Source of the DNA: Agarilytica rhodophyticola
GTDB lineage: Bacteria; Pseudomonadota; Gammaproteobacteria; Pseudomonadales; Cellvibrionaceae
NCBI RefSeq assembly: GCF_002157225.2
Contig: NZ_CP020038.1
Span: forward strand, 1,387,001 to 1,451,000
Direction of reading: 5' to 3'
DNA: 64,000 nucleotides
This document shows positions 10,302-13,059 of the stretch, in pieces. Within the stretch, counting starts at the first letter, position 1, and each line of letters opens with the position of its first letter. The position numbers and the translations under genes are program-made. The notes beneath the pieces are model-generated. The model made no database searches. It had not been told where the DNA came from and was given only the letters and a program-made list of their open reading frames with translations.

Positions 10302-11624
10302 TTACAAAATAAATCGGCTGAGGTCTTCATTTTGTGATAACTCACCCAACTGTTTTTCCACAAACTCAGCAGTAACAACCACCTCTTTGGTGGCTCCGTC
10401 TGTGTCGTACGAAACTTCTTCCAATAGCTTTTCCAACACTGTGTGCAAGCGTCTTGCACCAATATTCTCGGTACTTTCATTTACACGGTAAGCTGTCTCG
10501 GCAATCTTGCGTATTCCTTCATCGGTGAAACTCAGAGCAATATCTTCTGCTGATAATAGGGCCTGGTGCTGTTCTGTTAAGGATGCATCGGGCTCAGTAA
10601 GTATGCGCTCAAAATCAGCAGGCGTCAGGGCTTCAAGTTCTACTCGAATAGGTAAACGTCCTTGCAGTTCGGGAATAAGATCTGAAGGCTTGGAAAGATG
10701 GAATGCACCTGAAGCAATAAATAAAATATGATCAGTTTTAATCATACCGTGCTTAGTACTAACCGTGCAGCCTTCGATCAAGGGCAACAGGTCACGCTGC
10801 ACACCTTCGCGGGAAACATCTGCCCCCGAAGCTCCCTCGCGCTTACTTACTTTGTCTATCTCATCAAGGAAGACAATGCCATTCTGCTCCGCTGCTTCAA
10901 TTGCCCGAGCTTTAAGTTCTTCTTCGTTAATTAGCTTTGAGGCTTCCTCATCGACAATTTTTTTGAAGGCTTTTTTAACCGTCATTTTTGTCTTTTTGGT
11001 TTTACCGCTCGACATGGATGAAAACATGTTTTGTAATTGGCTGGTCATGTCTTCCATGCCTGGAGGCGCCATAATCTCAACACCTACCTGCGCAGCAGTG
11101 ACCTCAATTTCAATTTCTTTGTCGTCTAATTCGCCTTGCCTCAGTTTTTTTCGAAAGATTTGTCGCGTCGATGACTGCGCTGAGTTTTCGCTTGGCTCAA
11201 CATCTCTTGCTGGCGTTAGCAAGGCGTCGAGTATGCGCTCCTCGGCTGCATCTTGTGCGCTGTGATTTACTTTCGTCATCTCTTGTTCGCGATACAGTTT
11301 AATCGAGCGATCGACTAGATCGCGAATGATCGATTCCACATCACGGCCAACATAACCCACTTCGGTAAACTTTGTTGCTTCTACTTTTACAAAAGGTGCG
11401 TTGGCTAATCTCGCTAAGCGACGTGCAATTTCAGTTTTACCTACACCGGTAGGCCCGATCATTAAAATATTTTTTGGTGTGATTTCATTGCGCATGGATT
11501 CATCGAGTTGCATGCGCCGCCAACGGTTTCTCAAGGCAATTGCCACGGCTTTTTTGGCCGACTGTTGGCCGACAATATGCTTATCCAATTCGTGAACAAT
11601 TTCACGGGGAGTCATCTGTGACAT
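10302..11624 (-). CDS. hslU: ATP-dependent protease ATPase subunit HslU
   Basis: 440-aa AAA+ unfoldase of the HslVU protease. It carries Walker [10 protein letters not shown], pore loop GYVG (in VGYVGRDV), Walker B FLDEID, a sensor-1 region ILFIASGAF and the C-terminal SRFIL tail that inserts between HslV subunits to activate them. The inserted I domain lies at about residues 110-240. It is 29 bp downstream of hslV and shares its promoter. HslVU degrades misfolded proteins and SulA-like substrates, particularly after heat stress. Confidence 0.98.
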
Positions 11625-11653: not shown

Positions 11654-12193
11654 TTAATAACTGAGTTCTTCTATGGTGAAGTTATGATTAGTATAAACGC
11701 AGACATCGCCGGCAATGGTAAGGCCTTTTTCAATAATGGTTTTCGCGTCTAATTCTGTGTTTTCTAATAAAGCTCGTGCAGCAGATTGGGCGAAGGCGCC
11801 GCCTGAGCCAATGGCGATAAGGTCATCCTCAGGTTGTATGACATCGCCATTACCAGTAACAATCAGTGATGCTTCGTGATTGGCCACAGCGAGTAAAGCT
11901 TCTAAGCGTCTTAACGCACGATCTGTTCTCCAGTCTTTGGCAAGCTCCACGGCTGCTCTCACTAGTTGGCCACCATGGGTTTCCAGTTTTGCTTCGAATC
12001 GCTCAAACAGTGTGAATGCATCTGCGGTGCCCCCGGCAAAGCCCGCAATTACTTTATCTTTATAAAGCCGTCTAACCTTACGCGCGTTTCCCTTCATAAT
12101 AGTATTGCCCAGAGACACTTGGCCGTCGCCACCGATGACAACTTTATTGCCTCTGCGCACAGATAAAATAGTGGTACCTCTGTATTGTTCCAC
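11654..12193 (-). CDS. hslV: ATP-dependent protease peptidase subunit HslV
   Basis: 179-aa proteasome beta-like Thr peptidase. The GTG start has AAGGA 6-7 nt ahead. The catalytic Thr sits in GTTILSVRR: residue 7 is expected to become the mature N terminus, so a six-residue propeptide (MEQYRG) must be removed, whereas in E. coli only the initiator Met precedes it. [10 protein letters not shown] and [11 protein letters not shown] are conserved family segments. It is the first gene of hslV-hslU-DUF971, preceded by a candidate sigma-32 promoter (12305-12332) and a leader hairpin (12270-12288). Confidence 0.98.
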
Positions 12194-12304: not shown

Positions 12305-12332
12305 AAGTGGGGGTGCAAATGATAAATTCAAG
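12305..12332 (-). promoter_or_regulatory. Candidate sigma-32 heat-shock promoter of hslVU
   Basis: Reading the minus strand, CTTGAA (12332-12327) is followed after 14 nt by CCCCACTT (12312-12305). The sigma-32 consensus is CTTGAA-N13-17-CCCCATnT, so the match is exact at -35 and misses one position at -10. The leader to the GTG start would be about 100 nt. The -35 hexamer lies inside an 18-bp palindrome (12324-12341). Confidence 0.65.
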
Positions 12333-12340
12333 CGTGAATT

Positions 12341-12517
12341 TAGAGCTAATTAACTGTAGGTGGCCATAGAGAAAAGAGAGGAATTTTGTTGTCTGTTTAG
12401 GTGCTTGCCGCCTCTCATAGTGGTACTAATAGCATTGCTACGAGCAAGGCAAGCAACGACAACGGGCGGCAAAATAACCGTTCTTAATTTATGCTAATTT
12501 GTATTTAATTAGCTCTA
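12341..12517. mobile_element. 177-bp MITE-like imperfect palindrome
   Basis: The ends are perfect 13-bp inverted repeats (TAGAGCTAATTAA at 12341-12353, its complement at 12505-12517); counting flanking T and A gives 14 bp. Further matching arms lie inside: ATTTTG/CAAAAT (12383/12470), GTTGTC/GACAAC (12388/12458), GCTTGCC/GGCAAGC (12403/12448) and a TTGCT-acg-AGCAA tip. No coding sequence is present. Ends beginning and finishing with TA would fit an IS630/mariner-type TA target duplication. It lies between the SPOR gene stop and the hslVU promoter. Only one copy is visible here, so mobility is inferred. Confidence 0.5.
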
Positions 12518-12531
12518 ACATTCAATGCTGC

Positions 12532-13059
12532 TTATCCTTGTGGACTGCGCTTTAATACTAGGGCTTCGTGGCGATTAGACAAGAGTATTGAGCGCGCTTT
12601 TGATAATTTTGATTTAGAGGTAAAAGGGCCGACGATAACACGATGCCAGGTTTCACCATTGCGAATTTTGGCCCTTTCTGTGTAGGCGTCTAGGTTAAGT
12701 AGGATTAATTCTGCACGCAGTTGATCCGCATCTTTCATCGATTGAAACGATGCAACCTGCAATAAAAACTCTTGTTTAGGGGATATTTTTTGTGGTTGAG
12801 ATGTTTTAGGCTTCGCTGCTTTTGGTGTCGGTACCTCGGTTTCTTTTAACAGGCTGTAAAAATCAAAGCGGGGCTTTTGAGATTCCTTAGCGCTCTCTTT
12901 TGGGGAGCTGTTGCTCTTTCCTTGGTCGGGTTGTATTTCTGACAGACGAGTTAAGAACATGATAAATGCACCTAACACGGCGCCAGTAAACAGCCATACC
13001 CACGCAGGTACGCGTGAAGGTTCGTGGTTTTTTCGGGTGTTTGAAGGACTGCGTGCCAT
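12532..13059 (-). CDS. SPOR-domain cell-division protein (FtsN-like)
   Basis: 175 aa. A cytoplasmic basic N terminus is followed by a membrane helix (residues ~19-38, VWLFTGAVLGAFIMFL), a Pro/Lys/Ser-rich linker and a C-terminal SPOR domain (~98-172; LLQVASFQSMKDADQLRAEL, then WHRVIVGPF). SPOR domains bind denuded peptidoglycan at the division septum. The same gene precedes hslVU in Pseudomonas, where argS lies immediately upstream; here argS is absent. It is FtsN-like in architecture, but orthology to FtsN is not proven. Confidence 0.9.
   Translation of the reverse strand: MARSPSNTRKNHEPSRVPAWVWLFTGAVLGAFIMFLTRLSEIQPDQGKSNSSPKESAKESQKPRFDFYSLLKETEVPTPKAAKPKTSQPQKISPKQEFLLQVASFQSMKDADQLRAELILLNLDAYTERAKIRNGETWHRVIVGPFTSKSKLSKARSILLSNRHEALVLKRSPQG

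Follow-up and report, generated by a model that had tools for sequence, protein, structure and literature searches.

MITEs of the TA type have TA ends, are shorter than 200 bp and lie in intergenic regions, according to the accessible part of PMC2229807, and the element studied here fits all three. Among the described families, RUP of Streptococcus pneumoniae, whose movement is proposed to depend on IS630-Spn1, is likewise short and non-coding, with terminal inverted repeats and TA as ends and target (PMC2229807, same part). However, RUP measures 107 bp, is found in one host genus and has a known partner IS, whereas the present family measures 163-211 bp and its partner was not found in our searches; the two are likened by description only. 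Correia/NEMIS elements of Neisseria are also TA-ended MITEs with terminal repeats and a long hairpin (PMC2229807 and PMC10969869, in the portions available), but they have a 24-bp terminal inverted repeat and another host, and this likeness too is one of description only. According to PMC10969869, as far as its available text goes, transcript changes have been reported for Correia and ERIC elements, by way of promoters, IHF sites, RNase III or RNase E. The ERIC/IRU elements of enterobacteria, in the partial descriptions at hand, are intergenic palindromes with TA termini and a reported effect on mRNA, but are 127 bp long with a 7-bp terminal inverted repeat. E. coli genomes carry ERIC, and blastn of the window element against 5,426 E. 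coli genomes gave no match, hence no ERIC similarity.

The palindrome beside hslVU

The window is the whole stretch of Agarilytica rhodophyticola DNA that was analysed (64,000 nucleotides), and the coordinates of its features are collected in Table 1. The element, written TAGAGCTAATTAA...TTAATTAGCTCTA, is a 177-bp imperfect palindrome. Direct comparison showed that its terminal repeats are exact over 13/13 bp, and T 12340 and A 12518, just outside the element, stretch them to 14 bp, which agrees with the perfect 13-14 bp ends of the original prediction. As RNA, the + strand formed a single long hairpin whose arms are nested, and the arm coordinates were taken from this fold, at -68.5 kcal/mol (shuffle mean -42.5, z -6.5, 0/200 shuffles as low); the RNA of the - strand reached -52 kcal/mol (z -4.8, 0/200 shuffles as low). 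The inner inverted arms and hairpin tip that had been proposed are present in the + strand fold, and on both strands the hairpin beat all 200 shuffles. A repeat finder with seed 7 and minimum 10 reported zero inverted pairs in the element; lowering the seed to 6 and the minimum to 8 brought five, two of which are inner arms, and the terminal repeats were unreported at either setting. No ORF of at least 80 aa overlapped 12341-12517, as expected from the predicted absence of coding capacity. Rfam models run over 15 loci (E up to 1) gave no match to the element at 12341-12517.

Table 1. Features of the hslVU locus and of the palindromic element (window coordinates)
Feature	Position	Strand	Basis
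hslU, next after hslV	10302..11624	-	AAA domain (Pfam)
hslV (neighbour)	11654..12193	-	Pfam Proteasome
sigma32-like hslVU promoter motif, outside the element	12307..12332	-	CTTGAA 12327-12332, CCCCCAC 12307-12313
Very probable MITE copy	12341..12517	+ (orientation of model R1)	R1 167.5 bits on +, 54.4 on -; multi-copy
Left terminal inverted repeat TAGAGCTAATTAA	12341..12353	+	direct reverse-complement comparison
Second arm, left side, pairs with 12461-12475	12383..12397	+	fold
Third arm, left side, pairs within 12448-12457	12401..12409	+	fold
Hairpin tip, arms 12418-12424 with 12434-12440	12418..12440	+	fold
Third arm, right side	12448..12457	+	fold
Second arm, right side	12461..12475	+	fold
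Right terminal inverted repeat	12505..12517	-	direct reverse-complement comparison
SPOR-domain gene (neighbour)	12532..13059	-	Pfam SPOR 7.5e-15

The element sits between the stop of the SPOR gene (12532) and the start of hslV (12193), both genes being on the - strand. Read on that strand, it begins 14 bp past the SPOR stop, and 8 bp separate its end from the CTTGAA hexamer downstream, so the 8-bp distance claimed between the element and the -35 of the hslVU promoter is correct for this hexamer. The CTTGAA/CCCCCAC motif upstream of hslV, which we take to be of the sigma32 type, has its CTTGAA intact beside the element, and the pattern TTGAA-N(9-22)-CCCC was found in the SPOR-hslV spacers of 17 of the 28 relatives compared with 0.5% of mononucleotide shuffles. 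In pattern scans of the element region, no promoter of the sigma70 type turned up, and the single terminator-like site was on the + strand, with none found on the SPOR strand. The element would most likely have little or no effect on the expression of hslVU or the SPOR gene.

Copies in the genome and absence from hslV in relatives

Blastn of the element against its own genome (7.11 Mb, four contigs) gave 10 matches at E <=0.001, self included. The closest full copies were 70-73% identical to the window element over its whole length, and the family is therefore old in this genome. A covariance model, R1, was built from nine copies (alignment A1, in which row e9 is trimmed to 141/163 bases and e6 by 2, the tenth copy, L095, not being included). 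With 150 of 1338 first-look candidates scored, R1 found at least 10 full-length copies at E 5.3e-27 or better. Weaker R1 matches fell on a copy truncated at its left side (C1 6807499), on the 63-bp derivative L014 described below and on a fragment of one end (5252755); a further one, at 4610334, is doubtful. Queries with each single end brought further single ends and diverged copies. The multiple copies expected from BLASTN in the original prediction were found, as about ten full copies with related ends. Copy lengths in the family are 163-211 bp, the ten full copies show three end types, and 0/10 of them are spanned by an ORF of at least 70 codons. Two short remnants, L014 and L010, lie within ORFs, of 88 and 107 codons. 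L014 is a 63-bp deletion derivative (C1 2228957-2229019) that keeps the ends and little else, and the mini copy L013 (C1 1621646-1621679), at 34 bp, is hardly more than two ends.

Next to hslV, the comparison drew on 37 genomes with matches, of which 30 loci were taken, own included. R1 recovered the element in its own locus at 2.9e-39 and in 0/29 of the loci of relatives. The own SPOR-hslV spacer is 338 bp long, or 161 bp minus the element, and the spacers of 28 relatives are 60-451 bp long (median 108.5), with L173, which the start pattern missed, left out of the lengths and kept among the 29 loci searched with R1. The single relative with a spacer above 338 bp (L168, 451 bp) is nevertheless without the element. 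Among 58 genomes, its own and 57 from other genera, blastn matched the element in its own genome alone. These comparisons show that the element at hslV is an insertion relative to other genera; the expected empty-site string for the window copy, its flanks with one TA, is GTGAATTTAACATTC.

The alignment of the copies also bears on the hairpin. Double changes were found in 22 of the 48 pairs of A1 (shuffle mean 9.5, sd 2.3, 0/500 as many) and 93.5% of cells pair compared with 86.0% in shuffles, although relatedness alone can beat shuffles, A1 being aligned by sequence and its structure predicted from the same nine rows. Slid structures on A1 gave at most 7 double-change pairs, and the inner helices 2-4 hold 12 of the 22. 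The pattern suggests selection on hairpin shape, but self-correction of a palindrome would give the same picture. The tip is longer by roughly 45 bp in e2, e5 and e6, which have TAGAGC ends, and in e11 (L095), which has TATAGCTGAAGC-type ends; by locus, the long-tip copies are L095, L002, L090 and L094. Since this extension is common to two end types, tips have been exchanged between copies. Copy e11 is 88-97% identical to e9 in four arm regions and 23% in the tip, while its tip is 90% identical to that of e2; judged by these identities, e11 is a mosaic copy.

The same copy, L095 (C1 4049630-4049837; L095 1501-1831), lies inside a cobalamin riboswitch. RF00174 matched L095 at 38.6 bits, above its cut-off of 31.5; the match has its 5' part in the flanking sequence before it enters the element, and it represents the interrupted riboswitch and not the element as a known RNA. 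By reading of the sequence, the apparent remainder of the riboswitch, AAGCCCGATACCAGCCTGCCG, follows after the element. The gene downstream of the split riboswitch carries TonB-dependent receptor domains (Pfam).

Cousins in other Gammaproteobacteria and the mover

R1 was searched against 369 genomes of the class and matched 12, own included (11/368 others), at E <=0.001 per genome, where about 0.4 are expected by chance. A sequence-only model, R2, was run on 44 loci picked by R1, similarity or pattern. Matches at 6.1e-5 or better were obtained in 14 of the 44 loci, and at 0.002 in L109, values that flatter because the loci were preselected; 29 loci had no match, and one further match at E 9.6 falls in a locus already counted. 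Scaled to all searched sequence, the best E-values (L142, L106) are estimated to be near 1e-4, and the weakest do not stand alone. All 15 R2 matches lie between model positions 14 and 159 of 172; the outermost ends therefore take no part.

The cousins (L105-L111, L116-L121, L142-L147) resemble the window element in a length of about 160 bp, mostly TA ends and the core GGCGC...ATAG..CTAT...AGCAACG, but differ from it in their outer ends, e.g. TAGTGTCATGACTCGG and TAGAGTGACACCGATGC. The core of L142, from the MAG Candidatus Endobugula sp., is nearly identical, and its ends are of the TAGAGTGACACCGATGC type. AGCAACG is present in 15 of the 24 rows of the alignment of own copies and cousins, which omits L096 and the four own copies with a long tip. 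Blastn of the window element against plasmids and phages, and of cousin L108 against plasmids, gave no match; hslV had no match in viral contigs either, a result that carries no weight. A literature search of titles and abstract openings found neither the element nor the shared core named.

Palindromes with a similar core were also seen between gapA and pgk in three families (L112 1501-1633, L113 417-543, L114 1501-1622), and both genes beside L112 were confirmed by Pfam. These may be a conserved structure of the gapA-pgk spacer, perhaps an inherited terminator, and not independent mobile copies. Long palindromes of genus g76 (L122-L129, L131-L134, L136, L137, L139-L141) have different ends and a short GGGCAAGGCGCG-like inner stretch as in the TAGTG cousins; they were dropped as relatives, neither R1 nor R2 matching them.

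Empty sites were compared for cousin palindromes in genus g76 (family f44; genomes G225, G078 and G333). L117 in G225 reads TCGGC-TA-GTGTCACG...GGCAC-TA-TTGTACC, and the empty site in G333 reads TCGGC-TA-TTGTACC. L120 in G078 reads GTAGCA-TA-GTGCC...GGCAC-CC-GCGATG, with the right TA mutated, and the empty site in G225 reads GTAGCA-TA-GCGATG; the site is also empty in G333, where the junction is changed. At the third site, that of L106, both other genomes are empty, but the junctions are unclean and a neighbouring palindrome is missing too. Clean TA empty sites were obtained at 2/3 cousin loci, the window family having been compared with other genera only and not base-exact. Cousins of like plan were thus shown to insert at TA and to duplicate it. 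Two different palindromes, L195 1756-1902 (G078) and L117 1501-1664 (G225), lie within a few bases of each other at homologous intergenic sites, at which G333 is empty. Upstream of L106 (bases 807-930 of the query), a short palindrome of the GGGTGCGTCCCACGCACC type was found, with dozens of occurrences across the three g76 genomes.

The end sequences that would define an autonomous IS partner are TAGAGCTAATTAA or TATAGCTGAAGCACTATAAA. PF13358 was found in the own genome only as two pieces (L041, L042) of one broken gene with stops (C3 45942-46360), and this IS630-type gene was rejected as the partner IS, an inverted 16-mer scan around it giving no like ends. When one mismatch was allowed, the end pattern had 34 matches in the own genome compared with 25 for the reversed control, most of them probably chance, and no two of them faced each other at IS distance. 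For the TATAGC-type end, three mismatches were allowed and 10 matches were obtained, compared with 1 for the control; the facing pairs were known copies only. No partner end was found near the single ends at C1 4083579, 5252755, 1163038, 5769083 and 1702445. Pfam analysis of four ORFs beside single ends gave no transposase, one being a saccharopine dehydrogenase and three having no family. An autonomous IS630-type relative with like ends was not found in the own genome. The predicted IS630/mariner kinship therefore stands in part: the TA ends fit it, but an intact transposase with these ends was not found in the own genome. We infer that mobilisation of the IS630/Tc1-mariner type is likely because of the TA and the precedent of RUP and IS630-Spn1 in the available part of PMC2229807.

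Origin and meaning of the family

The window element is very probably a non-autonomous DNA element of the MITE kind, represented by an old, diverged copy. Its copies would have been moved in trans by an IS630/Tc1-mariner-type transposase recognising the TAGAGC... ends, and this transposase would since have been lost or broken in the own genome. After inserting between the SPOR gene and the promoter of hslVU, the window copy would have decayed and would now be mostly inert, apart from the long hairpin that it gives to any read-through transcript. The hairpin may have been kept during divergence either as something that a mover or host factor needs or through self-correction of the palindrome.

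A different mover, a single-strand one of the HUH/RAYT kind that recognises the hairpin core and involves no DDE transposase, would suit the placing of 12/22 double-change pairs in inner helices 2-4, not only at the ends, and the match of the cousins in the core but not in the outermost ends. We consider it quite improbable, with the TA duplication at 2/3 cousin empty sites speaking against it. Such duplication of TA is typical of IS630/Tc1-mariner elements and is not known to be typical of HUH movers. REP/REPIN elements, which belong with the HUH/RAYT kind, are marked by a RAYT (TnpAREP) gene and a GTAG/CGTC tag. A terminator or regulatory structure that is fixed in the SPOR-hslVU region and not mobile is suggested by the strong hairpin on both strands and by the position between two same-strand genes. 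About ten copies elsewhere in the genome, together with its absence from hslV in all 29 relatives, refute single-copy conservation, and a conserved regulator of that kind was rejected, with almost no probability left to it; the reading as a MITE therefore stands.

The MITE may also have been co-opted, either to shield hslVU from transcription reading through from SPOR or to determine where the SPOR mRNA has its 3' end or how stable it is. Its spacing from the SPOR stop and from an intact promoter-like site is consistent with such a role, as are the Correia and ERIC precedents for transcript change in the available part of PMC10969869. However, none of the 29 relatives has the element at hslV, the pattern scan gave the SPOR strand no terminator-like site, and the window copy has diverged like the other copies; we regard co-option as unlikely.

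Taken by itself, the window copy of this probable MITE is an ordinary old one. Tentatively, and with odds rather against it, the cousins could point to a superfamily of palindromes that insert at TA across the Gammaproteobacteria, in which an inner hairpin outlasts interchangeable ends and is selected via a host or transposition factor. If this is true, pairing persists in the core through double changes, as does part of its sequence, while ends differ by lineage and tips swap within a genome. A family with exchanged ends and tips, whose inner hairpin seems to be the conserved part, contrasts with the common picture of MITEs as IS ends with filler between them. The idea that the hairpin is the conserved part can be tested with existing genomes, and the copy in the cobalamin riboswitch is a natural test of the effect of the hairpin on a regulatory RNA.
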